Below are positions 26,782-61,782 of a DNA stretch of 64,000 nt, piece by piece. A program made the translations under genes and the position numbers. The notes under the pieces are model-generated. The model was not told where the DNA came from, made no database searches, and saw nothing but the letters and a program-made list of their open reading frames with translations. Source of the DNA: Phycisphaerae bacterium. GTDB taxonomy: Bacteria > Planctomycetota > Phycisphaerae > Sedimentisphaerales > Anaerobacaceae. The DNA lies in the NCBI GenBank assembly GCA_017993835.1, contig JAGOLX010000023.1, positions 1 through 64,000 of the forward strand, in the 5' to 3' direction. Numbering within the stretch: position 1 is the first letter of the stretch; each line of letters starts with the position of its first letter.

Positions 26782-27537
26782 TCATGCGCAGGTCGCGGCC
26801 ACAATCCCGTAGGAGACGTTGGCGAGGCCGTGAAAGAGGATGGGCGCCAGGAGGGAGCGGGTCCGCACGAACAGCCAGGCCAGGAGCAGGCCGGGCAGGA
26901 ACGTCAGGGCCGATACTATCTGACCCTGGACGGCGACGTGGGCCAGTGCGAAACACGCTGCGGAGACCAGGATGGCGATCCGCTGCCGGGCCTGTGGAGA
27001 CAGGCGCCGCTCGCCCAGCCACCTCATGGCGTTGGCCTGGACATACCCACGGAAGAATACTTCTTCGGCTGTTGCCACATAGAGGAACTGATAGAGCACC
27101 CAGGTCGGCAGGCTTTGTCCTTCCGCCAGGACCGGCTGCAAAGGAATCGGTACGCCCGACAGAGCCAGCCGCCATACGACGAAGCAGACCGCGGGCAGAG
27201 TGCACAAGCACGGCAGCACGACCGTTCTGAGGGCGAGCCCCCGATGCTCGCGGGTCAGTCCGATCGGTGGGAAGTCCCGCCTGGCGATCCACGTCGGCGC
27301 CAGGGCGGCGGCGACCAGCACACAGGGGATCAGGAACCACTGAAGGTCCGCGGCGTCGCCGACGTGGAGCAGGCGGACCACTGCGATGGCGCCCAGGGCC
27401 ACTACGGCTGTTTCCGCGGCCAGTCGCCCGGGCGACTGCGCCCGGGCGGTCGGCGTCGCCAGAGATCCGGGCTCAGGGAGAGTGCAGACGCCTACGGCGC
27501 CGTGTGGACCTCCAGACTGATCCTGCGGCTCGTTCAT
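26782..27537 (-). CDS. CPBP-family glutamic intramembrane protease, candidate C-terminal sorting enzyme
   Basis: The protein has 251 residues from the ATG at 27535-27537, which overlaps the stop of the giant secreted protein as ATGA. Several transmembrane helices are present. The three Rce1/CAAX-protease motifs are intact: AEEVFFRG (EExxxR, near 158), FALAH (FxxxH, near 199) and HGLANVSYG (HxxxN-type, near 237). In Haft's work on myxosortases, proteases of this family process Cys-containing C-terminal signals such as MYXO-CTERM and Synerg-CTERM. The translational coupling to a protein with exactly such a tail makes it the likely cognate sorting enzyme. That role is inferred. Confidence 0.8.
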   Translation of the reverse strand: MNEPQDQSGGPHGAVGVCTLPEPGSLATPTARAQSPGRLAAETAVVALGAIAVVRLLHVGDAADLQWFLIPCVLVAAALAPTWIARRDFPPIGLTREHRGLALRTVVLPCLCTLPAVCFVVWRLALSGVPIPLQPVLAEGQSLPTWVLYQFLYVATAEEVFFRGYVQANAMRWLGERRLSPQARQRIAILVSAACFALAHVAVQGQIVSALTFLPGLLLAWLFVRTRSLLAPILFHGLANVSYGIVAATCA

Positions 27538-30500
27538 GACTCGATGCATTTTACCGCTCGTCTCTTGTCTCTGCGCCGAAGGATGATCATGGCGACGACC
27601 ACGAGGCCGTACGGGACCAGCAGGTGCCTGGGCGAGCCGTTGGCGTGCGGGGAAAGGGAGCAGCCGCCGCCACCGCCGCCGTCGTTGCTGCTGGACGCGA
27701 TCACCGGAGAGTCGTCGGCGACGACATAGTACGGCGTGAAGTGCGTCGTCTTGAATCGCAGCGCGCACAACTCATCGCTGATCGTGATATGCTCGATGTC
27801 GGTGATGCCTTGCTGGCTCAGTCCGCCGGTGAGGGAGTCGTACCAGTAGGCACTGGCTCGACCGCTCGCGTCCGAGACCGCATACGGGATCGTCACCGTC
27901 ACTGCCTTGTCGAAGTCGACGCCGCTGGGCCCGAAGTCGTAGCTGCCCAGGCAATCGCTCGACGAGACGAGCGGATTGAGGATCTTCGAGATGGTGATTC
28001 GCAGGTCCGTCGGGCAGGCGCCTGCCGGCACGACGATGGAGACGTCGTCGGTATCGGTGATTGCCGCAGGACTTGTGCCGACGGTGGCTCCTGTTGCCGC
28101 GGCGACCAGGGTCGAGTGCAGCGGAGTGGAATCGACGTACGTCGTCGCTGCACAGTAGATTTCCGTCGCGGTGGTGCGGTCGTCCGTCCAGATGACGTAG
28201 GGTTGGCCGGCAGCCGTCACCGCGATGACCGGTTCGCTCTGGTTGGCCTCGCTGCCGCCGTCGCCGATGAGGATGTTCGTCTTGCCGGCGCCGGAACCGA
28301 TTTCCGCGAAATACACGTCTGTGTCGGCGCCGTAGGCGCCGATGTTCCTCGCGTCCTGCCAGCAGACGAAGACCTTGCCGTCGGCCGAGCAGGCGATGGC
28401 CGGATCGCTCTGGGCGGCGCCGGAGGTGTCATCGATCAGGCTGGCGCCGGTCACCGGGGCGCCGGGCAGGCCGCTGGACGAAGCACAGCAGATATCCGTG
28501 TCGCCCGACGCGCTATCCACCCACACCCAGTGCAGGAACGAGCCGCCCGGCGCGATCGCCAGGGCCGGATCGGTCTGAGAGCCGGCGCTGGTGACCAGGG
28601 GGTGATTGGCCCAGGAACTCGCGGACGAGGCTCCGTAGATGTCCGCCAGGCCGTTTCGCTTGTCCGTCCAGACGAGATACGCCGTGTTGCCTGCGTCCAC
28701 GGCCATGTCCGGCGCAAGCTGATCCGAAGCATCCGTCGTGACCGCCGACGTGGTGACGCTCGCGAAGGCATTCGTCGAACTCGCGACGTAGATGTCCTGA
28801 TTGCCGCTGCGGTCGTCCTGCCACGCGACGTACGCCCGCGCGGGCGATCCGCTGTCGATCGCCACGACCGGCGTGATTTCGTTGTCGTTGGAGTCGGTGA
28901 CGAGGGTCGCCCGTGTGAAGGTCTTGCCGTCGGAGGCGAGGGAGACGAAGACGTCCCAGTTGCCTCGACGATTGTCCTGCCAGACGACGTACAGAGTGCC
29001 GTTGCTGCCCAGTGCAACGTCCGGATTGCACTGGTCGGCGGCGTCCGTCGTGACCTGCACGGGCGTCTCAAAGGCCTCTTTTCCCGCCGGCAACTGAGCG
29101 ATGTAGATGTCCCTCGCCCCCTCCGGGCCGGCGTGCCAGGCCGCCCAGATGTTGCCGTCGGAATCCGCCACTGTCGCGGGGCTTGCGGTAGTGGCCTCGT
29201 TGGCTTCGCTGACCTGGATGTTGGTGCCGAAGGCTCGCATCTCCGTCGTGAACGAGTACGAAACCTCGGACATCGTGTTGCCCATGAGGTCGGTGGCGTT
29301 CACCGTCACGGTCACCGTGTGATCGAAGTCGAACAGTCCGTCGCGCTGGTAGATGAACTCGTAGTCGTTCTTGGCGCCGGACCGGCTGCATCGTCCGGAT
29401 GTGCCGGTATACAGGGTTGTGTCGCCCTCATAGATGAGTTCGCCGTCGACGGTGATTCGGACGGAACCGGCGTCCACGCCTCTTCCGGCGTCCGTCACGT
29501 GGAGCGTGACCACGTTGTTCAGCGGGACCTGGATGGTCCCCGCGGCGGGGGACTGCCGGGCCACCGTCGGGGGACTCTGGTCCGCCGAAGTGCTCACGAC
29601 CGTGACTGTGACGGTCTCGGAATCGGTGCTCTCGCCATCGTCGGCGACGAAGGTGATTTCGTAGGAGCCGACTTGATCGGCCGCGGGAGTCCAGGTGAAG
29701 CTCTGGCCCGAGAAACTCGCGCCGGAGGGGAGCCCGGTGGCGGAGTACGTCGGCGTGCCGCCGTCCGCGTCGACCGCGGAAACGGTGAACGACAGCGTGT
29801 CGTCCTGATCGACCGAACGATCTCCGATCTCGGCCAGCGCGGGAGCGCGGTTGACGTTGACGACCGAGATCGTGATAGTCTTGGAGTCCTGGGCCAGGCC
29901 GTCGCTGGCCACGAACGTCACGCTGTAGTCGCCCGCCTGATCGTAGCCGGGCGTCCAGGCGAAAGTCCGCCCGGTGAACGTGGCTCCGGTCGGGAGGCCG
30001 GATGCGGAGTAGGTGATGGCATCGCCGTCGGCGTCGGCGGCGCTGATCGAGAAGCCGACCGCCTGATTCTCATTGGCGGTCTTGTTCCCGATGGCGCCGA
30101 GAACCGGTGCGTCGTTCGACCGGGTCACCGTGATCGTAAGGGTCTCGGAGTCCTGGTTCGAGCCATCGCTGACGGTGAAGGTCACCTGATGGGTCCCGAT
30201 GTCGCTGGCGGACGGCGTCCACGTGAAGGTCCGGTTCGAGAACGTGGCTCCCGTGGGAAGTCCGGCGGCGGTGTAGGTCAACGCATCGCCATTGGCGTCG
30301 GTGGCGCTGACCGTGAACGTCAGGGTTTCGCCCTGAGCCACCTGTCTGCTTCCGATGTGCGACAGGACGGGGGCGTTGGCATCGCCGGTTACAGGCCAGA
30401 TGGGGCCGTACTGTGCCCTGTACGTGTCCCACATGTTGCGCGTGAAGGACCCGAGTCCCGACCACCAGCCGGAGTATTCGCCGTCAGCCGCGGTGAAAGC

Positions 30501-32021
30501 CATATACCGATCCGTGTAGTCAAAGTACGCGTTGTGGTTCCACAGTTCCTTGGCGCCCTCGGTCAACAGAGCCGCCAAGGCGGTCGTGTGAAACGGCGGG
30601 CCGGCAACCACCCGATAATTGGCCTGCAATGCCTTGTTGCTCGTCTCCGGTTGAGAGGAATGCCTGATACCCCACTCCGGCAACCCGATGTCCGCCGCGC
30701 TGTACGGGACCTGCTCTGCGATGCGGGGGTCCGGCGCCCACTTGGAACTGTTGGTGATGTCCACGTCCAACTGGGCGACATAGAACGTCTGATCATCCTC
30801 GCCGAAATGGATGTAATCGGGGGGGATATTCCCCGGCCCGTATCCATTTGTGTATAGGTAATCGCCTGATTTCTGACCAATGGCCTTCATCTCGCTGTCG
30901 TTCAGCATCAATCCGGCGAAGAGAATGGGCCACTTGCGTCCGCCGGCCACTCCGCCGTCGTTGAACCAGTTGATTATGCCTCCGGCGGCAACGATCCCAT
31001 AGAAGTCGATCCCCACCTGAACGAAACGGCACAGAAGCGTCTCCTTCGCCTCGGGTGCGAAGTCCAGATGCAGCATCAGAGCACCGATGCCGATCTGTTC
31101 GTGCATCTCTCGTCCGTAATTCGGCATGTTCAGGCTGGGGTGGGTGTAGTCATTCCTCCAACTCGGGAAATGATCCAGCCAGGGGGCAGCGAAGTAGTCC
31201 GCGACGGTCTCCAGGGCGGGCGTCTTACTGACCGGAGGCAGCCTCTTGAGCAACGAGTAGTTCAGCATGCTCTTGTTGAACTTGATGGTCTTGTCGGAGC
31301 CGCAGTACGGAGGTCGGAAGCTGCCTGCCGCGGCGGGGGACGGCAGCACCGTCAGGACCGCCGCTCGCACTAGTTGCGGCCTTTGGTGTGGCGCATCCGC
31401 ACTGATGGACGACACAAGAGACGAGTGCGCCGCGAGAGTGAGTGGCTTTGCAGCGGAGAGGCCCCACGCAACGTTCAGGGCCTCGTCATAGGGGATCGTG
31501 ACTCCGCTGATGGTATTGTCATACCCTATGGAACTACTGAGCGGATCGGGGTTCACCATCGAACCGTTCTTCACGTGGTCATCGACGGACGTCGACGCGG
31601 GGTCGATCCCGATGATCTTTACCGGACCCACGACCCAGAAATCGCCGTTGACGAAGTGGCCGACGGAATGGTAGCCATCGAACTTCCATGTGATCTCGAA
31701 CTGCTGGAGCGCCTTGGCCTTGTAAGAGACGTGCTGGGGCCACGCTGCGGCGTAGGTGGCCAAATCCGCCTGCTGGATGAAGACCGTATCGCCGCTGGCC
31801 GCTCCGGACTGCACGCGGCTCAGAGTCTTCCATGGTGCAGCGGCGGTGCCCGCGTTACCGTCGTTTCCATTGGCGGTGTCCAGGTAATACTCCGCCGCCT
31901 GGACGGGGGATATCGCCGCGATCAGGATGGCGAAAGAAGCCAAGCATATCCGGAGCGTGCGCTCTCCCGAGAAACGAATCTCGCCCTCACCTCGCTGCGT
32001 CGCCGATCTGCACAATGCCAT
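27534..32021 (-). CDS. Giant secreted Ig-repeat protein with Gly6-Cys C-terminal sorting signal
   Basis: The protein has 1495 residues from the ATG at 32019-32021 (GGGGG just upstream). The signal peptide ends near residue 43 (ISPVQA/AEYY). The first 540 residues form a lyase/hydrolase-like helical region (DYFAAPWLDHFPSWRNDYTH) that I do not recognise. Three putative-Ig (He_PIG) repeats follow (about 553-805, each with LPTGATF or LPSGASF and FTWTP), then a beta domain and six or more BNR/TolB-like blades (WAAWHAGPEGARDIYIAQ; YVAWQDDRSGNQDIYVAS). The tail has GGGGGGCSLSP (Cys near 1455), one hydrophobic helix and RRRDKRR: the tripartite layout of Cys-type sorting signals. Probably exported and surface-anchored. 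Confidence 0.8.
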   Translation of the reverse strand: MALCRSATQRGEGEIRFSGERTLRICLASFAILIAAISPVQAAEYYLDTANGNDGNAGTAAAPWKTLSRVQSGAASGDTVFIQQADLATYAAAWPQHVSYKAKALQQFEITWKFDGYHSVGHFVNGDFWVVGPVKIIGIDPASTSVDDHVKNGSMVNPDPLSSSIGYDNTISGVTIPYDEALNVAWGLSAAKPLTLAAHSSLVSSISADAPHQRPQLVRAAVLTVLPSPAAAGSFRPPYCGSDKTIKFNKSMLNYSLLKRLPPVSKTPALETVADYFAAPWLDHFPSWRNDYTHPSLNMPNYGREMHEQIGIGALMLHLDFAPEAKETLLCRFVQVGIDFYGIVAAGGIINWFNDGGVAGGRKWPILFAGLMLNDSEMKAIGQKSGDYLYTNGYGPGNIPPDYIHFGEDDQTFYVAQLDVDITNSSKWAPDPRIAEQVPYSAADIGLPEWGIRHSSQPETSNKALQANYRVVAGPPFHTTALAALLTEGAKELWNHNAYFDYTDRYMAFTAADGEYSGWWSGLGSFTRNMWDTYRAQYGPIWPVTGDANAPVLSHIGSRQVAQGETLTFTVSATDANGDALTYTAAGLPTGATFSNRTFTWTPSASDIGTHQVTFTVSDGSNQDSETLTITVTRSNDAPVLGAIGNKTANENQAVGFSISAADADGDAITYSASGLPTGATFTGRTFAWTPGYDQAGDYSVTFVASDGLAQDSKTITISVVNVNRAPALAEIGDRSVDQDDTLSFTVSAVDADGGTPTYSATGLPSGASFSGQSFTWTPAADQVGSYEITFVADDGESTDSETVTVTVVSTSADQSPPTVARQSPAAGTIQVPLNNVVTLHVTDAGRGVDAGSVRITVDGELIYEGDTTLYTGTSGRCSRSGAKNDYEFIYQRDGLFDFDHTVTVTVNATDLMGNTMSEVSYSFTTEMRAFGTNIQVSEANEATTASPATVADSDGNIWAAWHAGPEGARDIYIAQLPAGKEAFETPVQVTTDAADQCNPDVALGSNGTLYVVWQDNRRGNWDVFVSLASDGKTFTRATLVTDSNDNEITPVVAIDSGSPARAYVAWQDDRSGNQDIYVASSTNAFASVTTSAVTTDASDQLAPDMAVDAGNTAYLVWTDKRNGLADIYGASSASSWANHPLVTSAGSQTDPALAIAPGGSFLHWVWVDSASGDTDICCASSSGLPGAPVTGASLIDDTSGAAQSDPAIACSADGKVFVCWQDARNIGAYGADTDVYFAEIGSGAGKTNILIGDGGSEANQSEPVIAVTAAGQPYVIWTDDRTTATEIYCAATTYVDSTPLHSTLVAAATGATVGTSPAAITDTDDVSIVVPAGACPTDLRITISKILNPLVSSSDCLGSYDFGPSGVDFDKAVTVTIPYAVSDASGRASAYWYDSLTGGLSQQGITDIEHITISDELCALRFKTTHFTPYYVVADDSPVIASSSNDGGGGGGCSLSPHANGSPRHLLVPYGLVVVAMIILRRRDKRRAVKCIES

Positions 32022-32101
32022 AGAATCCCCCGAGACCCTCTTTGCCATTCCGTGCCAGGCTGCGCGGCGCATCGAGGGCCAGAATAAGTACCTTTGAGCA
32101 A

Positions 32102-32131
32102 ATTGTAGCAAACAACCGGTTATCTGAACAA
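32102..32131 (-). promoter_or_regulatory. Candidate promoter of the giant protein / protease operon
   Basis: Minus strand: TTGTTC (32126-32131), an 18-base spacer and TACAAT (32102-32107). About 80 bases upstream of the preferred start codon. Confidence 0.5.
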
Positions 32132-42065: not shown

Positions 42066-42102
42066 ATCGCAGGTGTTCTCCGGAAAGGCGTGGGTCTCAA
42101 CC

Positions 42103-43404
42103 ATGGAACAACCTGTCACCATAACCGGTCTGACTCTCTTCATCACGGTGGTCCTGTCCATTCTGACTCTGGCGGTGCCTCGCCGATATGCCTTGTTGCC
42201 CTATGTAATCGGGGCATGCTGGGTGCCCGCGGACCAGAGGATCATGGTGGGAGAACTGGACTTCCAGGTGATCCGCGTTCTTGTCGTCATGGGCATTCTG
42301 CGGCTCTGGCTGCGTTCGGAGACGGTTCGGATACGATGGAACCGATTCGACAAGCTGTTCCTGGCCTGGGTGCTGGTGGGCGACCTGATCTACGTCCTGC
42401 AATGGATGAGCATGGGGGCTCTCATCTTCAAGTGCGGCCAGACGTTTACCGCACTGGGACTGTATTGGGTGTTCCGGCAGATCACGCGATCCTGGGCGGA
42501 TCAGCGAATGGCGTGCGTCGCCTTGGGGGTATGTGCCGTGGCGATGGCGCCGTTTGTCGCACTGGAATGGGTGACCGGATCGAATCCTTTTGGGGCGCTG
42601 GGGCGCGTGACCACGCTGCTGCGAGAGGGCAACTTCCGTGCGCAAGCGACGTTTCCCCACGCCATCATGATGGGGCTGTTCTGGGCCACCCTCGTGCCGT
42701 TGTTTGTCGGCTTCTCCAAACAGGGTCACAAGACGCTGTTCTGGCTGGCGATCGGGGCGTGTGCATTCATGATTTTCGGGAGCAACTCCAGCACGCCGAT
42801 TCTGACTCTGGCTGCCGTGGTTGGTCTGCTGCTGTGTTACCGGTGGCGGCGGAATGCGGGCAAGGCGGCCTGGGCGGCGTTGATCCTGGCTTTTGCCCTC
42901 CACCTCGTGATGAAGGCCCCGGTATGGCATCTGTTGGCGCGGGTGAGCGTCGTATCCGGCTCCACGGGATGGCATCGTTACTACCTGGTCGACAGTGCCA
43001 TCCGTCATTTCTCTGAGTGGATGCTTCTGGGCACTCGCGACACGGCCCACTGGGGCATGGGATTGCAGGACGTAACCAACCAGTACGTCCTGGAAGGTGT
43101 GCGTGGCGGGCTCATCACGCTCGTCCTGTTCTGCGCCATCCTGATTGTGGCCGGCAGGGCGCTCGTTCGCCTGTCTCTGCATCCCCGCGACAAGAGAGAA
43201 TCGTATCTCGCCTGGTGTTGCTTCGTCTGCTTGATCGGCCATTGCGTGTCGTTCCTCGGGGTTTCGTATTTCGGGCAGATCATGCTGATCTGGTATTTCC
43301 TCTTGGCTCTGGTCGGCTACTGCTACGACAGGGCGTACGCGAAGACGGCCTCCGTCGCGAGGAAGTCGCCCCCCGTCGCAAGCACGGCGTGTGCCTGTCC
43401 GTGA
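42103..43404 (+). CDS. O-antigen ligase/polymerase-like membrane protein
   Basis: The protein has 433 residues and about 10-12 hydrophobic helices, from the ATG at 42103 (an earlier GTG at 42073 is possible). A large periplasmic loop lies near the C-terminal third (HLLARVSVVSGSTGWHRYYLVDSAIRH...), where the WaaL/Wzy family carries its catalytic loop, with an Arg/His pair. It would polymerise repeat units (Wzy-like) or ligate chains. It is followed by the 202-bp gap containing the tRNA-like element. Confidence 0.75.
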   Translation: MEQPVTITGLTLFITVVLSILTLAVPRRYALLPYVIGACWVPADQRIMVGELDFQVIRVLVVMGILRLWLRSETVRIRWNRFDKLFLAWVLVGDLIYVLQWMSMGALIFKCGQTFTALGLYWVFRQITRSWADQRMACVALGVCAVAMAPFVALEWVTGSNPFGALGRVTTLLREGNFRAQATFPHAIMMGLFWATLVPLFVGFSKQGHKTLFWLAIGACAFMIFGSNSSTPILTLAAVVGLLLCYRWRRNAGKAAWAALILAFALHLVMKAPVWHLLARVSVVSGSTGWHRYYLVDSAIRHFSEWMLLGTRDTAHWGMGLQDVTNQYVLEGVRGGLITLVLFCAILIVAGRALVRLSLHPRDKRESYLAWCCFVCLIGHCVSFLGVSYFGQIMLIWYFLLALVGYCYDRAYAKTASVARKSPPVASTACACP

Positions 43405-43475
43405 TTCCCCGGCACGGAGAGAATCATTCAAGCCGGTGCATGTCCCGGCCGATGATAAGGGGTGTCGTCAGACAA

Positions 43476-43545
43476 GGGGACGTAGCTCAAGGAGAGCGTT
43501 GGTCCGCAAGGTCCGAAGATGTTGGTGCGAATCCAACCGTCTCCA
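43476..43545 (+). ncRNA. tRNA-like RNA with alanine-type acceptor and GNRA hairpin instead of anticodon loop
   Basis: Acceptor stem GGGGACG (43476-43482) pairs 7/7 with CGTCTCC (43538-43544), with a G3-U70 wobble; A73 is 43545. U8 and A9 follow. The D-arm is GCTC-AAGGA-GAGC, a 5-base loop that keeps A14, A15, G18, G19 and A21. The T-arm is GTTGG-TGCGAAT-CCAAC. U48 (43520) could make the Levitt pair with A15. The anticodon region (43499-43516) instead folds as TTGG/CCGA, a T-T mismatch, then CC-GCAA-GG: a GNRA tetraloop with no 7-base loop and no U33. CCA is not encoded. It lies between the O-antigen-ligase-like and a glycosyltransferase gene, upstream of FemAB-like genes. Structure seen by eye; function inferred. 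Confidence 0.7.
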
Positions 43546-43606
43546 TTTCGGGTCTCCCCTGCGGTTTTCCGGGGTCGGTTCGTGGTTGTGACGTGAGCCT
43601 TCGAGG

Positions 43607-44635
43607 ATGGGAACAGAGACGAGCAGAATACAGTCCGGAGATCTGAACGCCCCGGTTCAGGCCCGTGTCCTGAGCGATGCGGTTGACGTTTCGGTTGTCA
43701 TCGTCAACTGGAACACACGGGACATGCTGCGGGATTGCCTCCGATCCGTCTACGAGCAAACGCGGGATGTTTCCTTCGAAGTGATCGTGGTGGACAATGC
43801 GTCCTCGGACGATTCCGTCTCCATGGTGCGCGGTGAGTTCCCTCACGTATTGCTGATCGCGAACGAGAAGAACCTGGGCTTTGCCGCGGCGAACAACCAG
43901 GGGTTCGAGAGAGCCCGCGGTCGCTACATCCTGATGCTCAACCCCGACACCGTCGTGTTGGACCAGGCGATCGGCAAGTCCGTGCACTATGCGGAGAACG
44001 CTCCGGAGGCGGGCGTGGTCGGATGTCGCGTGCTCTGGCCGGACGGGAGACGCCAGAATTCCTGCTTTCGTTTCTCTTCCGTCGGACAGATCGCTCTGAG
44101 TTCCCTGGCCTTCTTTCGGATGCATCGTCTCTTTCGCTGGCGGATTCTCCATCCCGACAGGTATCTGAATCGTGACTTCTCGCAGGAGCAGGATGTCGAC
44201 GTTGTCGCCGGCTGCTTCCTTCTGATTCGTCGCAACGTGTTGTCGCAGGTCGGAACACTCGACGAGGATTTCTTCATGTACGGGGAAGAGGCGGAGTTCT
44301 GTCATCGGGTGCATCGGGCTGGCTGGCGGGTCCGCTATTTCCCCGGCGCCCAGATCATCCATTTGTACGGCGGCAGCTCGAATCAGGTCTTTCACGAGAT
44401 GTCGCTCGCCAAACGACTGGCTGCTCTCCTTTTGGTCGAGAAGACCCGAGGTTTCATGCATGCCTGGGCATGCAACCTGTTCATGCTTCTCGGGGTTCTG
44501 CTGCGCTTGCCGCTGTGGCTGGCCCACGGCGTATTTCGCCGGGGCAAACAGGGACAGCAAGTGTTCCAAGGCAAGTGGCCGATCTGCAAAGCGCATGCGG
44601 CGGGTGTGTTCCGCCCGATCTGGAGGCGAAGATAG
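43607..44635 (+). CDS. Family 2 glycosyltransferase, rhamnosyltransferase-like
   Basis: The protein has 342 residues. VDVSVVIVNWNTRDMLRDCL and VIVVDNASSDDSVSMV are the donor-binding start of rhamnosyltransferase-type GT2 enzymes. Later NLGFAAANNQGFERARGRYILMLNPDT contains the DxD-like NPDT, and DEDFFMYGEEAEFCHRVHRAGW is the catalytic ED region. A C-terminal hydrophobic stretch (about 290-315, ACNLFMLLGVLLRLPLWL) may anchor it to the membrane. It is the first gene after the tRNA-like element and lies 3 bases before a FemAB-like gene. Confidence 0.88.
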   Translation: MGTETSRIQSGDLNAPVQARVLSDAVDVSVVIVNWNTRDMLRDCLRSVYEQTRDVSFEVIVVDNASSDDSVSMVRGEFPHVLLIANEKNLGFAAANNQGFERARGRYILMLNPDTVVLDQAIGKSVHYAENAPEAGVVGCRVLWPDGRRQNSCFRFSSVGQIALSSLAFFRMHRLFRWRILHPDRYLNRDFSQEQDVDVVAGCFLLIRRNVLSQVGTLDEDFFMYGEEAEFCHRVHRAGWRVRYFPGAQIIHLYGGSSNQVFHEMSLAKRLAALLLVEKTRGFMHAWACNLFMLLGVLLRLPLWLAHGVFRRGKQGQQVFQGKWPICKAHAAGVFRPIWRRR

Positions 44636-44638
44636 AGC

Positions 44639-45700
44639 ATGACGACGGGGTTGGAAGTGCTGCACGGCAGTTTTGAGACGGACCAGTGGAGTTCCTCGCA
44701 GTGGGACTCGCTGACTTCCCGTTTTGCCGCCACGAGCATCTACCAGTTGGGTTTGTACGCGGAGTTGCACAGCGCCGGCCGTTTTCGCGAGTACTCTCGG
44801 GCCGCTCTCTTCGACCAGGAACACAAGGTCGCCGCGTCGCTTCAGATGCGCATCAAACGGTTGCCTTTCCAGCAGGGAGGAGTGGCGGACGGCGAGTGGG
44901 GGCCGTTGTGGGAGAACCTCGATCAGTTGGCCGCGTTCCTGCGGTGCCTGCACCAGGAGTATGTCGAGAAGAGGAAGATGGAGCTGCGTCTGACTCCTGC
45001 CAGCACCTACTCAGACTCGTTGGACAAGGAGCTTGTTCAATGCCTCGAGGAGCAGGGGTTTCGGAGGAATGCAGAGGCCCGGCCCTATCACACGGTAGTT
45101 GTGGACCTGAGCCAGTCGCTGGAGGATATTCGCGCCGGTTTCCACCAGAAATGGAGAAACCAGCTCAACGTTGCGGAGAAGGCCGGGCTTCAGCACGAAT
45201 GCGGAACGAGCGACGAGTTCTTCGACCGCTTCCTGCGGATCTATGAGCAGATGTGGCAGAACAAGAAATTCCCGACGGGTGTGCGGGTGCCCATCATCCA
45301 TCGCATGCATCGCAGTCTGCCGGAGCGGCAGAAGCTCCTGGTCACTATCGTCAAAGATGGGAACACCGACTTGGGCGCGACGGTCTGTGCGGCCTATGGC
45401 CATCGCCTGTTGTACTTCCTGGGGGCCACCATGCCGGGGTTGCGAAGTGAGGCTCGTCCCGGTTATCTTCTGCAGTGGCTCCACATGAGCAAGGCCAAAG
45501 AACTCGGTCTGCGCTGGTACGACGCGGGTGGTTACGACGACGCGAACCAGGATATCGCGCGATTCAAGAAACGCATGAATGGGAATCTGGTTATCTACCC
45601 GGGCCAATACGTGTGCGGCTCGCAGAGAACCTCGGCCAAGGCCGTCGCATGGGCGGAAGTGGTCTATCGGAAGATGCGCAGGATTACCACGGGGTGCTGA
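44639..45700 (+). CDS. FemAB/FemX-type aminoacyl-transferase-like protein
   Basis: The protein has 353 residues with two GNAT-like lobes. RPYHTVVVDLSQSLEDIRAG and FHQKWRNQLNVAEKAGL are the FemAB hallmark (the family has K-x2-R-x2-I/L-x-K/A). TPGLRSEARPGYLLQWLHMSKAKELGLRWYDAGGYDD is the C-terminal lobe. FemAB proteins add amino acids from aminoacyl-tRNA to peptidoglycan precursors. Relatives in exosortase loci (TIGR03019-type) are common but of unproven function. It lacks the coiled-coil arm used for tRNA binding in some Fem enzymes. It begins 1.1 kb after the tRNA-like element. Confidence 0.85.
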   Translation: MTTGLEVLHGSFETDQWSSSQWDSLTSRFAATSIYQLGLYAELHSAGRFREYSRAALFDQEHKVAASLQMRIKRLPFQQGGVADGEWGPLWENLDQLAAFLRCLHQEYVEKRKMELRLTPASTYSDSLDKELVQCLEEQGFRRNAEARPYHTVVVDLSQSLEDIRAGFHQKWRNQLNVAEKAGLQHECGTSDEFFDRFLRIYEQMWQNKKFPTGVRVPIIHRMHRSLPERQKLLVTIVKDGNTDLGATVCAAYGHRLLYFLGATMPGLRSEARPGYLLQWLHMSKAKELGLRWYDAGGYDDANQDIARFKKRMNGNLVIYPGQYVCGSQRTSAKAVAWAEVVYRKMRRITTGC

Positions 45701-45753: not shown

Positions 45754-47010
45754 ATGGTAGAACTGAGAACTCCTGTGTCCGATCGCACGAGGACAGAGGG
45801 CTCGGACTGCGCGGCAGTGGACGTGACCGTGCACGACGACTTCGACCGGATGGAGTCCCTCCGCGAGGAATGGGATCGTTTTGTTGAAACCACCTGTGGC
45901 GATATCTTCCAGACCTTTGACTGGTGCCGGATCTGGTGGAAACACTATGGCGGCAGACGCAGGCTCCGGGTCCTGATATTCCGGGAGAAGGCGAAGATCA
46001 TCGCCGTGATCCCGCTCTTCCTCGACGCGATCTGGGTGGGACCATTCCGCGTCGTGACCGCCAAGCTCGTTGGTTCGGACTTCGGACTGGTTCAGTACTC
46101 TCCTGCCATAGAAAAGGAACGCATGGGGGAGGTGGCCCGTCGACTTAGCGAGCAGCTCTCGCTCCTGCATGTCGATTTGGCGCATATCGGGCCGATAGCC
46201 GGTCTGTACGGCGGTTTCCAGGAGTGGCGCGATGCCCTGGGAAGCGGAGTCCGACACTATCGTGTGAAGACCCGTGACGGCGGCGTTCAGACCTATTTTG
46301 AATTCGATGGCGATTTTGACGCCTACCTTTCCTCGCTGAGCAAGGACGAAAGAAAGCACATCCGCCAGAGCTACAAGTCAGTGGCTTCCATTCCGGATGT
46401 GGGGCCATCCCCGGTCGTGTGCCAGGTCGTCCCGGAGGAAGACCTGCATGAGAGCTTCTCCGCGTTTGTGGACATGCACCAGGCACACTGGCAGGACGCC
46501 GGACGGAGCGGGCATTTCGGGGACTGGCCCGCTTCCGCGGAGTTCCACCGCGAAGTGGCTGAAGTGCAGCAGGGGGTGGGCAGACTCAGGTTGATGAGAA
46601 TCGCAGCCGAGAACGCGACGCTTGGATACGAATACGTGTACCGATGCGGCTGCACGTATTTCGCTCTGCTGGTGGCCCGTCGGGATTCCCCGAAGTCCGG
46701 GGGCAACAGCCTGGGACGGGTGATCTTCTGTGAGCAGGTGAAGCAGGCGCTGGGCGAGGGAGTTCGTCATATCGACAGCATGCGAGGACGATACGAGCAC
46801 AAGCTCAAGCTTGGCGGCAGACTGTACCCGATCCGGAGCATCGTCCTGGTCTCAACTGCTCGATACGCTTCGTTCAAGGCTCATCTCTATCTGGCGATGT
46901 CCAAATGGATCAACCTGCTATACTATAAACTATGGTATTGCAGGATTCTGCCTCGGTTGAAGGTGAAGAATCGATCCCTGTGGCGCACATGGATTCGCAC
47001 GCGATTGTGA
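45754..47010 (+). CDS. CelD/BcsL-like GNAT-fold acyltransferase
   Basis: The protein has 418 residues; AAGGG lies 6 nt before the ATG. It has the double-GNAT CelD/BcsL layout: EEWDRFVETTCGDIFQTFDWCRIWWKHYGG, RVLIFREKAKIIAVIPLFLD, and the GNAT_6 block (SSLSKDERKHIRQSYKSV; IDSMRGRYEHKLKLGGRLYPI). Related to FemAB structurally but usually assigned to acetyl- or aminoacyl-transfer onto polysaccharide. It overlaps the next gene start. Confidence 0.8.
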   Translation: MVELRTPVSDRTRTEGSDCAAVDVTVHDDFDRMESLREEWDRFVETTCGDIFQTFDWCRIWWKHYGGRRRLRVLIFREKAKIIAVIPLFLDAIWVGPFRVVTAKLVGSDFGLVQYSPAIEKERMGEVARRLSEQLSLLHVDLAHIGPIAGLYGGFQEWRDALGSGVRHYRVKTRDGGVQTYFEFDGDFDAYLSSLSKDERKHIRQSYKSVASIPDVGPSPVVCQVVPEEDLHESFSAFVDMHQAHWQDAGRSGHFGDWPASAEFHREVAEVQQGVGRLRLMRIAAENATLGYEYVYRCGCTYFALLVARRDSPKSGGNSLGRVIFCEQVKQALGEGVRHIDSMRGRYEHKLKLGGRLYPIRSIVLVSTARYASFKAHLYLAMSKWINLLYYKLWYCRILPRLKVKNRSLWRTWIRTRL

Positions 47011-48230
47011 AGACTCCCCTGTACTGTCCGACACGTACGTTCCGCTGGCGTGCTGTTCTTGGCGATTCCCTTGTCAACAAGGGGTTGCCGAAGTGGCCGC
47101 AACTGGATGGTGCGGAAGCGATTGCCTTCTACCAGGGGAAGGTGGCTCTGTGGTTTCTTTGCGAGTTGTGGCAGTTGCAGCCGGGTGATGAAGTCCTCAT
47201 GCCGGCGTACAACTGCGGCTCAGAGGTGGATCCATTTCACGCGTATGGGACTCGCGTGGTGTTCTATCGGGTCGATGAGAGAGCCCGAATCGACGGCGAG
47301 GACCTCAAGAGCCGCTGCACATCCAGGACCCGGATTGTGTACATCACCCATTACTTCGGCTGGCCGCAATCCGTGGCATCCGTCTGTCGCTGGTGCCGGG
47401 AGAAGGGGATTCGGGTCGTCGAGGACTGTGCTCTGTCTCTGTTCTCGGTGGGCGGAGAAGGTCCTCTCGGGACTCTTGCCGACGCGTCTCTGTTCAGTTT
47501 TCGAAAGACACTCCCGGTGCCCGATGGGGCCGCCCTGGTGTTGCGCGACGGCTCAGGACCGTCCTCGCGGCATGACCTCCGCAAGCCGCCGCTGCGAGTC
47601 ACCCTGCGGAACCTCAGACCCTTTGTGAAATCGAGCCTGCTCGATGTGGTGTCCAGAGTGGGAGCGTATTCGTACTTGCGCAGACGCCGGATGGACTCAT
47701 TCGATCCTCCAGCGGCCGACAAATCAGACCGGCCGGAACGGCCGGACATGCCGCCCAATTACTACTTCGACAGACGGATGCGGAACTGGACAATGTCTTC
47801 GCAGGCGGCCGGCGTCTTGAGCCGGACGGAGCCTGCCAGCGTGGTCGAACGCAGGAGGCGGAACTACCATTGCCTGCTCCAGAGGATTCGTGGAATGGGG
47901 CTGCAGATGAATCCGCTGTTCGATACCCTGCCGGAGGGGGTGTGTCCCCTGGGCGTGGTCCTTCTGACGTCGCATCGATCCACCATCGTTCGGACGCTCC
48001 ATGCCTGTGGCATCGCGGCGTTCGCATGGTGGCAGGGATACCACCGGGATTTCGACTGGAGCCGTTTCCCCGAGGCCGGGAACTTGAAGGACAACGCCCT
48101 GTTCCTGCCCATTTCGCAGACCATGGATGAGCGCCATATGGCTTATATAGGCGATTGCCTGAGGATGGCTGGCAGCGTCATGGAGGCGGATCAAGAGCAC
48201 ACCGTTTGTCGGACGACTGAGCATGGATAG
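46989..48230 (+). CDS. DegT-like PLP-dependent aminotransferase family protein
   Basis: The protein has 413 residues from an ATG at 46989 that overlaps the previous gene by 22 bases; an ATG at 46932 is a weaker alternative. Fold-type I features are present: GKVALWFLCELWQLQPGDEVLMPAYNCGSEV, YITHYFGWPQ, VVEDCALSLFSVGGEGPLG, and the Lys in SLFSFRKTLPVPDGAAL (near 173). It is more divergent than the first aminotransferase, and its role might be in sugar amination or a related chemistry. An 8-bp overlap links it to the following GNAT gene. Confidence 0.75.
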   Translation: MDSHAIVKTPLYCPTRTFRWRAVLGDSLVNKGLPKWPQLDGAEAIAFYQGKVALWFLCELWQLQPGDEVLMPAYNCGSEVDPFHAYGTRVVFYRVDERARIDGEDLKSRCTSRTRIVYITHYFGWPQSVASVCRWCREKGIRVVEDCALSLFSVGGEGPLGTLADASLFSFRKTLPVPDGAALVLRDGSGPSSRHDLRKPPLRVTLRNLRPFVKSSLLDVVSRVGAYSYLRRRRMDSFDPPAADKSDRPERPDMPPNYYFDRRMRNWTMSSQAAGVLSRTEPASVVERRRRNYHCLLQRIRGMGLQMNPLFDTLPEGVCPLGVVLLTSHRSTIVRTLHACGIAAFAWWQGYHRDFDWSRFPEAGNLKDNALFLPISQTMDERHMAYIGDCLRMAGSVMEADQEHTVCRTTEHG

Positions 48231-48867
48231 ACACAAAACAGAACTGCTGCATCGTACCTTCAGTGCGGGGCTGCGCCCCTTCGTTCGCGAGATGGGAATG
48301 CTCGTGAAGAGCAAACTGTGCGGCGCGACACATCTGGTCTTTGAGATAAAGAAGCAGGAATACACCCCCTTGTGCGGGGGGCCGAACGATTCGCTCTCCC
48401 TGCGTGCATACGACACCTGGGACGCGATTCCCGAGGAGATGAAAGGGACGATCGCCCGCGACCTTCATGGCGAGTACTGGGGGAAACAGGAGTGGATACA
48501 GATCGGCTGGCGGTTCTGGGTTGGAACGATCGAGCAGGAGTTGGCCATCGTTGGCTGGACCCGGGGACCGGGCCGGTGCGAGGATTTCTTCTTTCCCCTG
48601 TCGTCTGACTGCGGTCTGCTCTGGCAGACTGTCACGGTCCCGAAATTCCGGGGCCGGGGACTGTGCTCGCTGGTCTTGAGCCGAATGTCGGGCGCACTGT
48701 TCGAGAATGGCGTGGATCGCGTATACGGCTCTTGCCGGGACTACAACCTCTCCTCGAAAAGGGCCATTGAGAAGGCGGGTTTCAAGTATATCGGGCGGGG
48801 TTTCGTCCAGAAGAGGACCGGCAAGGGGATCTGGTATCCGGTCGCCCGTCCTTTCACAGAGGGGTAG
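48223..48867 (+). CDS. GNAT-family N-acetyltransferase-like protein
   Basis: The protein has 214 residues. The acetyl-CoA-binding pattern is visible as LLWQTVTVPKFRGRGLCSLVLSRM (V-x3-F-R-G-R-G, motif A) with a C-terminal SSKRAIEKAGFKYIGRGFV. The Lys- and Arg-rich N-terminal part lacks a known domain. The substrate is unknown; an acyl group for an amino sugar made by the neighbouring aminotransferases would fit. It lies between the PLP enzyme and a deacetylase. Confidence 0.8.
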   Translation: MDRHKTELLHRTFSAGLRPFVREMGMLVKSKLCGATHLVFEIKKQEYTPLCGGPNDSLSLRAYDTWDAIPEEMKGTIARDLHGEYWGKQEWIQIGWRFWVGTIEQELAIVGWTRGPGRCEDFFFPLSSDCGLLWQTVTVPKFRGRGLCSLVLSRMSGALFENGVDRVYGSCRDYNLSSKRAIEKAGFKYIGRGFVQKRTGKGIWYPVARPFTEG

Positions 48868-48875
48868 AAGACGCG

Positions 48876-49700
48876 ATGGTGTATCGACGGCACGGCCTCG
48901 GTGTCCGGATTGTCTACCTGTTGATCGCGTGTGTCGCACACGTGTTCAGCGGATTGGGCAGGCGGTTCGCCGGCCGGTGGCTCGTGTTGTGTTATCACGG
49001 CGTCTGCGATACGCACGCCAGCCGATTCCGAGAGCAAATGAGGCACTTGAGCCGCTCTGCCTCGCGCGACGCGGGTGGCAACGAACACTGTGTGAGCCGA
49101 CGCAGCCTGCCTGATGTCCACATTACCTTCGATGACGCTTTCGAGAACCTCATGCGGAACGCGTTGCCCGCTCTCCACGAGTTCGGCATCCCGGCGGTGG
49201 TCTTTGCCGTTTCCGGGAACCTCGGGAAGACTCCGCAGTGGCGCATCTCTCCCGACCACCCCGAGTATGGCGAGCGACTCATGACAGCCGGGCAACTCCG
49301 GGAGATCGCCAACGGCTGCGTTGTCATCGGCTCGCATACGCAGACTCACCCGTCGTTGACGGAACTGTCCCGTGAACAGGTCCGAACGGAACTGGCCGAG
49401 TCCCGGAAGTGCCTGGAGGAGACGCTCGGCCGGCCGGTTGTGGATCTCGCCTTGCCGCATGGCGCGTACAACGACGCCGTTCTGGAGGTGGCTCGCGAGG
49501 TCGGCTACAAGAGAATCTACACGCTTCAGCCGCGGGTGCATGGGGCCCAGGAGAATGGCGATGTCGTCGGACGGTTCTCCATGTCGCCGGATGTCTGGCC
49601 GATCGAGTTCCGCTTGACGTGCGCCGGCGCGTACGCCTGGCTGGGACCATGGCGCCGATGCGCGAGGGCGATTCGCAGGTGGGCCTTTGGAAACCGTTGA
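48876..49700 (+). CDS. Polysaccharide deacetylase (NodB-like, CE4)
   Basis: The protein has 274 residues. An N-terminal hydrophobic helix (about 10-26, VRIVYLLIACVAHVFSG) suggests membrane anchoring or a signal. NodB homology motifs: LVLCYHGVCD, the catalytic/metal ITFDDAFEN (near 83-90) and the metal-binding SHTQTHPSL (near 153-160), with ALPHGAYND further on. It would remove N-acetyl groups from the growing or finished polysaccharide; deacetylases of this kind are common in exosortase-associated loci. Confidence 0.88.
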   Translation: MVYRRHGLGVRIVYLLIACVAHVFSGLGRRFAGRWLVLCYHGVCDTHASRFREQMRHLSRSASRDAGGNEHCVSRRSLPDVHITFDDAFENLMRNALPALHEFGIPAVVFAVSGNLGKTPQWRISPDHPEYGERLMTAGQLREIANGCVVIGSHTQTHPSLTELSREQVRTELAESRKCLEETLGRPVVDLALPHGAYNDAVLEVAREVGYKRIYTLQPRVHGAQENGDVVGRFSMSPDVWPIEFRLTCAGAYAWLGPWRRCARAIRRWAFGNR

Positions 49701-49716
49701 ACTTCAGGAGAGATCG

Positions 49717-50769
49717 GTGAGTGGCGTGCTGAAACCGGTGGACCAGACGGCGTGGGGGGCGTTGGCGCCTGGGTTCCTGGACTACAACTACCGCCAGATG
49801 TGGGATTTCGGCGTCGCCTGCGCGGACCGGGTCGGCGCGGTCAGTGAGCATGTGGCCGTCGAGTTGGAGGGCGAGATCATAGGGTTGGCTGACGTTCGGG
49901 TCAAGCGCATCCCGGCCCTGGGAACGGGGATCGCCTATATCAACGGCGGGCCTCTCGTGCGCCGCAACGACGACTCCAACGCGGATCGGCTGGCTCTGTG
50001 CCTCAAGAGCCTGATCCAGGAGTATGCCGAGCGACGCGGCATGGTGTTGCGGGTCATGTCGCCTGTGGGCGAGGCGAAATGGGACCAGACGCAGGCGGCG
50101 GTTCTGTCCAACGTGGGATTCTCGCCGTGCGAGGCGGTGCGGCCCTACCGGACCTTTCTCCTGGATATCGCCAGGCCACCCGAGGAGATCCGCCGGAACA
50201 TGGCGCAGAAGTGGCGAAACGGTCTCAATCAGTCGGAGAAACGCGGCCTGTCCATCCGGACCGGCACGGATCCCGCCTTGCTCCGCGAGTTCTGCGATCT
50301 GTTTTCTCGCTTCATCGACCGAAAAGGGTTCACCGTCGATCTGACGCCGCCCTTCTATCTGGCCGTCCAGGAGAAGGCGCCCGAGGCCGATCGATTCGAA
50401 ATCAACCTTGCCGAAGTGGATGGCACGGTCGTCGCGGGACACGTCGCCAGTCTCCTGGGCGATACGAGCGTCTATCTGCTGGGGGCTTCGAGCGACGAGG
50501 GCCTCAAGGCGAAAGCCTCGTATCTGCTCCAGTGGCGAGCCATCCAGTCCGCCCGGGAGAGGGGACTGCGATGGTACGATCTGGGGGGAATCGATCCAGA
50601 GGGCAATCCCGGCGTCTACCATTTCAAGAGCGGCCTGGGGGGGCAGGATATCACGGCTCCGGGTCCCGTGGAGTACGCGGCCTCGGGGTTCGAACGGGCC
50701 GCAGTGCGCGGATGCGAGCGAGCCTATCGTCTGCTGCGGCGAGTCCGACGGATCGTCGCTCGACCATGA
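49717..50769 (+). CDS. FemAB-type aminoacyl-transferase-like protein (second copy)
   Basis: The protein has 350 residues from a GTG at 49717 with AGGAG 6 nt upstream. The FemAB pattern recurs: VRPYRTFLLDIARPPEEIRR, NMAQKWRNGLNQSEKRGL, and the C-terminal lobe ERGLRWYDLGGIDPEGNPGVYHFKSGLGG. It is homologous to the 44639 product (same QKWRN and RWYD blocks). FemX/FemAB enzymes take aminoacyl-tRNA as donor, which ties this gene to the tRNA-like element upstream in the operon. Confidence 0.87.
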   Translation: MSGVLKPVDQTAWGALAPGFLDYNYRQMWDFGVACADRVGAVSEHVAVELEGEIIGLADVRVKRIPALGTGIAYINGGPLVRRNDDSNADRLALCLKSLIQEYAERRGMVLRVMSPVGEAKWDQTQAAVLSNVGFSPCEAVRPYRTFLLDIARPPEEIRRNMAQKWRNGLNQSEKRGLSIRTGTDPALLREFCDLFSRFIDRKGFTVDLTPPFYLAVQEKAPEADRFEINLAEVDGTVVAGHVASLLGDTSVYLLGASSDEGLKAKASYLLQWRAIQSARERGLRWYDLGGIDPEGNPGVYHFKSGLGGQDITAPGPVEYAASGFERAAVRGCERAYRLLRRVRRIVARP

Positions 50770-55632: not shown

Positions 55633-57639
55633 ATGACCGGTAGAAGCACACTGTCGCAGCTTGATCTCCGCACGATTGTGCTCGTCGGCGGACGGGACTT
55701 CGGGCGATGCCCGCTGGCTTCGCGTCTGCCTGCGGCGCTGTGGCCGATCGGGGACCGGCCCGCGCTGGCGCGCCTGCTGGATCATCTTGCGAGGGAAGGG
55801 GTTCCGCGTGCGTCCGTCTGTTGCGATGCCTCCATGGCACAGGACGTGGCGTCCTTCTGTCGGGGCAGCCGACTGGCGACGACTGTCGTGCCGGAGGAAC
55901 TGATGGGGGGAACCGGAGGGTGCCTGCGGGATGCGGCGTCCGCCGACCCCGGGGAACTGATTCTAGTGCTTTCCGCCAGTATGGCTGTGCCGCCGCCCCT
56001 GGCCGATCTGATCGAAGCGCACCGGTCCAGCGGCGCGGAGATGACCGTGGTTTTCAACCCCGGACGGGCGGACGACGGATCGCTCGGCCCGTCGGCGGAG
56101 ATATTCGTGTGTCGGCCGCAGGTGCTCGAACGTATTCCCGCAGGGGGGTACTCGGACATCAAGGAAGGCGTGATTCCGTCGGTCGTGCGGGCTGGCGGGG
56201 TGGTTCGCCCGTACGTGCTGGAGCGGCCGGTGGGGAACTTCAGAGAACGCCAGGGATATCTGGACGCGGTCGAGGTCTTCCTTTCCGTGGGAGAGCCTGA
56301 CGGCGCCAGTTCAGTCGTTTGCGGCGACTCGCAGGGCGGGCCGATACGCGTGGGCTTGGGCGCTTTGGTGCATCCGCAAGCCCGGATATGCGGACCTGTC
56401 TTGATCGGGGAGCACGCCCAGGTCCGGGAGGATGCTGTTGTGATCGGCCCTGCTATTCTCGGGCCGGGTGTTGTCGTGGGCGAGAAGAGCGTCGTAGTTC
56501 GAAGTGCTTTGTGGACGGGGGTTTCTGTGGGCAGGAGTTGCGAGATTCGCGAATCGATCCTGGGTTTCCGCGTGAAGGTGCTGGATGGTGCGGGCGTGAT
56601 CGGTCGTGCTGTGTCCTCGGCATTCTCGGGGCGCGATGCGGAGGACGGGAGGCCGTCCCCGTGTGGCTCCGCGGGCGGGCCTGGCCGTTTCATGAGGTCG
56701 TTGCCGGGTCGTTGGCTTGGGGGATCGAGCGAGGGATCGGGGCTTCCGCGGGCAGGAGTGACTGTGATTCTGGCCGCGGCGGCTGTCGTGATCTCGCTGC
56801 TGTGGTCGTACTGGCCTACGATGCGGGACCTGATCCGAGAGTGGCGCACGAGCCAGGAGTACTCCTCCGGGATGCTCGTTCCCTTCCTGGCCATCTACGT
56901 AGTCTGGTCGCGTCGCCAGGAGATGGGTTCGGCGACGCTTCGTCCGGCCCTGCTCTGGGGCGCCGGGGCTCTGCTTCTCGCCCAGGTGTGCCGGGGGCTC
57001 GGATTGTACTATATGTATCGGTCCGGCGAGCGGTTGTCTCTGGTCTTGTCCGTCGCAGCCTTGGTGCTGCTGATGATGGGCTGGGGATACCTGAAGAAGC
57101 TGTGGCCCGTCCTGGTCTTCCTGTGCCTGATGCTGCCCTGGCCGAATCGGATTCAGGCGGCGGTTTCGCTGCCTTTGCAGCGGTGGGCGACCAGTTCTGC
57201 CGTCTTCTGTCTGGAACTGGGCGGCTGGGACATCGTGCGCAGCGGTAACACCATCGACATCGAGGGGACCAAGGTGGCCGTGGCGGAGGCGTGCAACGGG
57301 CTCAGGATGATCACCGCGTTCTTCGTGATCAGTGCACTGGTCGTGCTGCTGACACGGCGGTCGTGGTGGGAAAAATTGATCGTTCTGTTGTCGAGCGTCC
57401 CGATCGCACTGCTGTGCAATACCGTCCGATTGGTGGTGACGGCCTTGCTCTATACTGTGGTGGAGAGCACGGTATGGAGAGACCGGATTCACGATGGCGA
57501 CGGATACGCCATGATGCCTCTGGCGCTGGCGATGGTGGTGGGGGAGTTGTGGCTGCTGTCTCGGCTGACCACGCCTCCCATGGAAATTGAACCGGCGATC
57601 GTCTCGCGACGACAACCTCAGCATGTACCCGACCCTTGA
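55633..57639 (+). CDS. Exosortase fused to an N-terminal sugar-nucleotidyltransferase-like domain
   Basis: The protein has 668 residues. Residues 1-330 resemble NDP-sugar pyrophosphorylases (LPAALWPIGDRPALARLLDHL; ELMGGTGGCLRDA; ILVLSASMAV) and then a left-handed beta-helix (GPVLIGEHAQVREDAVVIGPAI). The usual GxGTRL P-loop is degenerate. Residues about 380-650 are a multi-pass EpsH-type exosortase with all three catalytic elements: AEACNGLR (Cys near 554), NTVRLV (Arg near 598) and RIHDGDGYAMMP (His near 621). Exosortases cleave PEP-CTERM-type signals on secreted proteins. No PEP-CTERM substrate is in the window. The fusion is unusual. Confidence 0.85.
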   Translation: MTGRSTLSQLDLRTIVLVGGRDFGRCPLASRLPAALWPIGDRPALARLLDHLAREGVPRASVCCDASMAQDVASFCRGSRLATTVVPEELMGGTGGCLRDAASADPGELILVLSASMAVPPPLADLIEAHRSSGAEMTVVFNPGRADDGSLGPSAEIFVCRPQVLERIPAGGYSDIKEGVIPSVVRAGGVVRPYVLERPVGNFRERQGYLDAVEVFLSVGEPDGASSVVCGDSQGGPIRVGLGALVHPQARICGPVLIGEHAQVREDAVVIGPAILGPGVVVGEKSVVVRSALWTGVSVGRSCEIRESILGFRVKVLDGAGVIGRAVSSAFSGRDAEDGRPSPCGSAGGPGRFMRSLPGRWLGGSSEGSGLPRAGVTVILAAAAVVISLLWSYWPTMRDLIREWRTSQEYSSGMLVPFLAIYVVWSRRQEMGSATLRPALLWGAGALLLAQVCRGLGLYYMYRSGERLSLVLSVAALVLLMMGWGYLKKLWPVLVFLCLMLPWPNRIQAAVSLPLQRWATSSAVFCLELGGWDIVRSGNTIDIEGTKVAVAEACNGLRMITAFFVISALVVLLTRRSWWEKLIVLLSSVPIALLCNTVRLVVTALLYTVVESTVWRDRIHDGDGYAMMPLALAMVVGELWLLSRLTTPPMEIEPAIVSRRQPQHVPDP

Positions 57640-57658
57640 GTACTGGGAGAACTGATTT

Positions 57659-59971: not shown

Positions 59972-60016
59972 GTTGTGCCTGCCAGATGCCCGACGGGAGC
60001 GTAGTCTGATCTGACC

Positions 60017-61669: not shown

Positions 61670-61782
61670 GAGGAAGACGCGGGCATCCTGCCGGACCCGA
61701 GTTCGGGTCTGTCGGGTCCTGAACGCGGACCCTCTCGGCAGATGTGCGAATGCCTCGCAGGGAAGTTGGAAAGGGCGGGTCA

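Follow-up and report, generated by a model that had tools for sequence, protein, structure and literature searches.

The window, a stretch of 64,000 nucleotides (nt) from a bacterium of the class Phycisphaerae (contig JAGOLX010000023.1), encodes on its plus strand a 70-nt tRNA-like element (positions 43476-43545) that is very likely a conserved, non-decoding relative of tRNA-Ala. It lies in a 202-nt gap of a polysaccharide operon, between a Wzy-like gene (42073-43404) and a glycosyltransferase family 2 (GT2) gene (43607-44635), exactly where a preliminary description of this DNA had placed it. To judge from its sequence, it is probably charged with alanine, and it is possible that this tRNA-Ala descendant feeds its alanine to FemAB2, a FemX-like ligase encoded in the same operon; the strengths that we attach to these three statements are judgement estimates, not computed values. 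The parts of the element, and a hairpin linked to it, are as follows.

43476-43545, plus strand: tRNA-Ala-like RNA of 70 nt, recognized by an Rfam tRNA match, an orthologue and its own covariance model
43476-43482/43538-43544: acceptor stem, with G3-U70 at 43478/43542 and A73 at 43545
43485-43497: D arm
43499-43516, plus strand: stem-loop in the position of the anticodon arm, a 7-position stem closed by GCAA (43506-43509)
43521-43537: T arm
43423-43456, plus strand: conserved hairpin of 34 nt, separated from the downstream tRNA-like part by 19 nt (by 16 nt in a second species)

The Rfam model RF00005 covers the element end to end and gives it 51.2 bits, against a gathering score of 29 (E = 4.6e-8 for the window), and the orthologue in the second species scores 55.6 bits. 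The element thus has the cloverleaf of this family above the gathering cut-off, but it lacks the 7-nt anticodon loop that would contain U33 and a triplet anticodon. ARAGORN did not call it in the window and reported the orthologue as "tRNA-???" with "anticodon gcaa." No transfer-messenger RNA (tmRNA) was found in the window with ARAGORN or Rfam, and the element matches the tRNA model only. Its fold energy of −27.8 kcal/mol (z = −2.68) was equalled in 1 of 200 shuffles, and a covariance model built from it gives the element itself 101.7 bits versus 56.6 bits for the best ordinary tRNA. The tertiary and acceptor bases U8, A14, G18, G19, C56, G3-U70 and A73 are as previously described, and A58 is likewise in place. 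That drawing of the element is accurate but incomplete: it missed the D-loop of only 5 nt, the G instead of U at position 55, a U-U mismatch in the replacement arm and the hairpin at 43423-43456.

The orthologue is found in a second species of the genus (genome G001, contig JAAYVJ010000123.1), between the same two genes and on the same strand. The two copies are identical at 64 of 70 positions without a gap, and their acceptor, D and T stems are invariant. The adjoining Wzy-like and GT2 proteins are 69% and 44% identical between the species, and the four-fold degenerate sites of ten genes of the locus are 37 to 54% identical; at 54% neutral identity, the chance of at least 64 identical positions out of 70 is about 1e-11. 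Conservation so far above that of the silent sites of the neighbors argues for strong purifying selection and against a decaying pseudogene. The preliminary description had staked its proposal on homologues near femAB genes and on stems conserved between close relatives; the orthologue does share its operon with a FemX-like gene, and the stems have held.

In the place of the anticodon arm, both species have an 18-nt arm that folds into a closed stem capped by GCAA, in agreement with the earlier drawing. This arm holds four of the six differences between the copies (UCC/GGU in the window versus CUU/GGG in G001): from the window to G001, the one U-U mismatch of the 7-position stem becomes a C-G pair and two C-G pairs become U-G, giving six versus seven paired positions. 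The GCAA loop is invariant, and the changes at the three stem positions keep or improve pairing. Such pairing-compatible changes, seen in two sequences, are suggestive and fall short of covariation proof. With a closed hairpin replacing the anticodon loop, the element is probably unable to take part in protein synthesis.

Two readings would deny the element this status. A functioning tRNA with an unusual loop, e.g., an 8-nt loop that reads a four-base codon via GCAA, would agree with the invariance of GCAA and with the ARAGORN output for the second species, but the window copy would then have C at position 33, which is near-universally U, in both species the bases in question are paired and lengthen the stem, and there is no known frameshifted gene that requires four-base decoding; we consider it very improbable. 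Decay of a tRNA pseudogene, or a scar left by integration, is scarcely credible and was rejected on the conservation of the element relative to silent sites. The lost anticodon loop and the occurrence of one copy, in two species only, speak for it, whereas 64/70 identity next to near-saturated silent sites, stem changes that keep pairing and the same location in two separate genomes speak against it. The diverged flanks also argue against a recent exchange of just this stretch between the two genomes.

Closer inspection of the kept and lost positions, with 32 ordinary tRNA-Ala sequences of the host and of relatives within its family and order as the comparison set, shows where the element departs from translational tRNAs. 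All 32 have G49-U65, a T-loop of TTCGA or TCCGA (U or C at position 55) and a D-loop of 7 to 8 nt; the element of both species instead has G49-C65, U50-A64, U51-A63 and G55, its T-loop is UGC, and its D-loop has 5 nt. Hence, G49-U65, the base at position 55 and the full D-loop, all features of translational tRNAs, have been lost. In the cell-wall tRNA-Gly of Staphylococcus aureus, the presence of other pairs where G49-U65 and G51-C63 would bind EF-Tu strongly is the mark of weak EF-Tu binders (PMC4052509). On the other side, G3-U70 and A73, the identity set of tRNA-Ala, are retained in both species together with G2-C71, which is essential for the use of Ala-tRNA by FemX (PMC4052509). In its acceptor stem, the element matches the host's own tRNA-Ala(UGC) base for base, which makes descent from tRNA-Ala most likely.

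The tRNA set of the host is complete and includes three further genes for tRNA-Ala, each with a normal anticodon, and therefore, the element is not needed for decoding. CCA is encoded in none of 46 host tRNAs, and the trailer begins with T in 27 of them, as it does in the element. The host has one full-length gene for alanyl-tRNA synthetase (AlaRS) and no extra one; other matches are partial and fall on the C-terminal half of AlaRS. The host genome G000 has tRNA-Glu(UUC) genes of identical sequence at the ends of two contigs (C17:1-75 and C81:5180-5254), probably one repeat that broke the assembly.

The genes around the element are listed below; domain matches bear out that two of them are of the FemAB type, as the preliminary description had it.

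42073-43404, plus strand: Wzy/O-antigen-ligase-like membrane protein (PF04932, weak and below the cut-off)
43607-44635, plus strand: GT2 glycosyltransferase (GT2c; PF00535), the downstream neighbor of the element
44639-45700, plus strand: FemAB1, FemAB-type transferase (PF13480 and PF02388)
45754-47010, plus strand: Acetyltransf_6 (GNAT-type) protein (PF13480), 33 to 35% identical in the second species
46932-48230, plus strand: DegT-family sugar aminotransferase (PF01041)
48223-48867, plus strand: GNAT acetyltransferase (PF00583)
48876-49700, plus strand: polysaccharide deacetylase (PF01522), overlapping FemAB2
49687-50769, plus strand: FemAB2, FemX-like transferase (PF02388), 74% identical in the second species

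Beyond FemAB2 there are glycosyltransferases, WecG, WecB, a UDP-sugar dehydrogenase, an exosortase and a Wzc-like protein, and the locus of G001 has the same gene order minus FemAB1. The best solved relatives of FemAB2 by sequence are FemX enzymes. Its structure model (mean predicted local distance difference test [pLDDT], 89.1) has the FemX of Weissella as its top fold match, followed by recent aminoacyl-tRNA-dependent peptide synthases solved with streptothrisamine. FemAB2 is predicted to have the double-GNAT fold of FemX together with the catalytic lysine, K314 being aligned with Lys305 of FemX, whose role is described in PMC12945691.

The pair of deacetylase and FemX-like genes (48876-50769; other loci, L168, L190, L191, L199, L200, L201, L115 and L117) recurs in polysaccharide loci of Planctomycetota and is also present in metagenome-assembled genomes of Methylococcales and of Acidobacteria type, with FemAB2 identities of 35 to 39%; this recurrence suggests an amide-linked aminoacylation of deacetylated amino sugars. 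In the exosortase (55633-57639), the PF09721 domain spans residues 388 to 642. The protein is long on the N-terminal side, where a hexapeptide region of the left-handed-helix type and a weak match of nucleotidyltransferase character give it the look of a fusion with a sugar-nucleotide enzyme; its relatives align across most of the length. Long open frames on the minus strand (43487-44953, 57329-61789 and 27534-32111) overlap likely genes, the first of them also the element, and are probably an effect of base composition.

In our model, a former tRNA-Ala has been recruited as an amino acid carrier in the synthesis of a surface polysaccharide. The operon transcript would carry the hairpin, with a protective or processing role, and then the tRNA-like unit, which RNase P and a 3' nuclease would excise and the CCA-adding enzyme would complete at its 3' end. 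The single full-length AlaRS could then charge the unit with alanine via G3-U70, for which the anticodon is not needed. We propose that the unit stays out of translation because it reads no codon and has lost the signals for tight EF-Tu binding. FemAB2 may finally take the alanine from the unit and transfer it to an amino group freed by the neighboring deacetylase. A natural tRNA-Ala descendant that has discarded its anticodon, has the sole task of bringing alanine to a FemX-like ligase that modifies an exported polysaccharide and is encoded in the very operon that it serves is a proposal that we advance tentatively and with some doubt.

The distribution of the RNA bears on this proposal from both sides. 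Among 89 genomes of the family, 161 of the order, a class sample of 397 and a phylum sample of 392, the covariance model found the element above the cut-off in two genomes only (G000 and G001), in a search that is blind to divergent members scoring like ordinary tRNA-Ala (below ~57 bits). The exact element pattern had no match in viral contigs, plasmids gave no element match, and a phage match was an ordinary tRNA. The scanned neighborhoods of 43 Wzy relatives and of FemAB2 relatives contained no copy except the second species' own, and we found no report of such an element in open-licence papers. Within the genus, the Wzy gene is present in eight of nine genomes (62 to 70% or better), and FemAB2 (at E <1e-40) is present only in G000 and G001, the same two that have the RNA. 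In G005, G006 and G003, the genes Wzy, GT2c and GT2d come one after the other, but FemAB2, the deacetylase and the RNA are all missing (a gap of ~2.8 kb follows Wzy in G005), and the shorter or partial views of the locus in G002, G008 and G004 are likewise without the RNA. From this pattern of presence and absence, the RNA came or went with the FemAB2 module, perhaps by gain or loss on a single occasion.

Several observations weigh against a role as alanine donor. About 20 other loci with a homologous FemAB2 (28 to 48% identity), mostly paired with a deacetylase, have no tRNA-like RNA in the flanks examined; a ligase of this type can thus do without the RNA, which speaks against an obligate partnership. 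With the RNA in only two species, the linkage rests on possibly one evolutionary event, and no counterpart of FemAB1 was found in the locus of the second species (L087). The alanine identity bases, though retained, could be ancestral leftovers. FemAB-like proteins of polysaccharide loci may use another donor, as HfsK of Caulobacter is described as an acyltransferase (PMC5362036). The earlier claim of a non-translational alanine donor is upheld as regards a tRNA-Ala relative that is unlikely to decode, is under strong purifying selection, has alanine signals and shares its operon with a FemX-like gene in both species, and is weakened by the distant FemAB loci that lack the RNA.

A further difficulty is the upstream hairpin, which a donor role leaves unexplained and which could point to a cis-acting role. 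All 11 pairs of the hairpin are kept in both species; the outer stem is invariant, and three pairs of the inner stem are altered on both sides with pairing preserved. Sliding of the partners gave zero or one such double change versus the three observed, and 69 of 500 shuffles reached the observed value, a control of weak power with two sequences. Both copies adopt the hairpin when folded alone, whereas the minimum-energy fold of the whole gap in G001 favors other pairing. The exact hairpin pattern has one match in each of the two genomes, each beside the element. Chiefly because of this hairpin, a cis-acting element of the operon mRNA is the main rival, although we regard it as rather unlikely: either RNase P and a 3' nuclease would cleave the tRNA-like fold and so part the upstream mRNA from the downstream one, with the hairpin guarding the upstream 3' end, or the fold would bind AlaRS or another factor and control the downstream genes. 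In line with this, the element lies inside the operon and occupies the same gap in the two species, a hairpin with pair-keeping double changes is linked to it 16 to 19 nt upstream, and the gap of neither species has a promoter-like or terminator-like site. However, an ordinary tRNA would suffice for processing alone, which requires neither that G3-U70, G2-C71 and the D/T tertiary bases stay unchanged nor that the anticodon loop be replaced, and related loci have the same two genes adjacent without such an element. It is also imaginable, with still lower probability, that the element is a trans-acting regulatory RNA or part of one and not an amino acid donor. The tRNA-Other of Bacillus cereus, a pseudo-tRNA that forms part of a larger regulatory RNA with effects on cell wall and biofilm, is a precedent (PMC3399842), and a second structured part is linked here too, but no conserved single-stranded region for target pairing stands out, conservation being concentrated in the tRNA fold and the hairpin.

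If alanine donation is true, the element would be a tRNA wholly outside the genetic code that still holds its amino acid, and it would reveal the donor used by the FemAB-like proteins of many exosortase and polysaccharide loci. With the element, the donor question can be reduced to one RNA, one synthetase and one ligase.

The cell-wall tRNA-Gly of S. aureus resembles the element in that tRNA relatives are diverted from translation to FemX-type ligases and show T-stem changes that fit weak binding to EF-Tu (PMC4052509). Those are tRNA-Gly isoacceptors for peptidoglycan with changed G18-G19, whereas the element has a closed anticodon loop, keeps G18-G19, has alanine as its putative cargo and is encoded in a polysaccharide operon. 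tRNA-Other of B. cereus is likewise a tRNA-like RNA outside translation, within a larger transcript and connected to cell surface traits (PMC3399842), but it has retained an anticodon for Trp, is a poor substrate for charging (with lysine) and lies at the flank of a genomic island, whereas the element has an alanine acceptor and no anticodon loop. According to PMC3985003, tmRNA is charged with alanine and consists in its tRNA portion of the upper half of a tRNA without an anticodon; for the element, such charging is predicted. Unlike tmRNA, which has a tag-coding part and acts on the ribosome, the element has no mRNA part, and its 70 nt form a cloverleaf that includes a D stem. tmRNA also has G3-U70. 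The FemX of Weissella viridescens, the closest solved fold to FemAB2, uses Ala-tRNA-Ala and needs G2-C71, which is present in the element (PMC4052509), but its substrate is a peptidoglycan precursor and its tRNA an ordinary one. HfsH and HfsK of the Caulobacter holdfast are again a deacetylase and a FemX-like protein that modify an adhesive polysaccharide; PMC5362036 mentions no tRNA-like RNA and treats HfsK as an acyltransferase. In sum, non-translational tRNAs that feed cell surface synthesis are a known kind, and the element would be a variant thereof.
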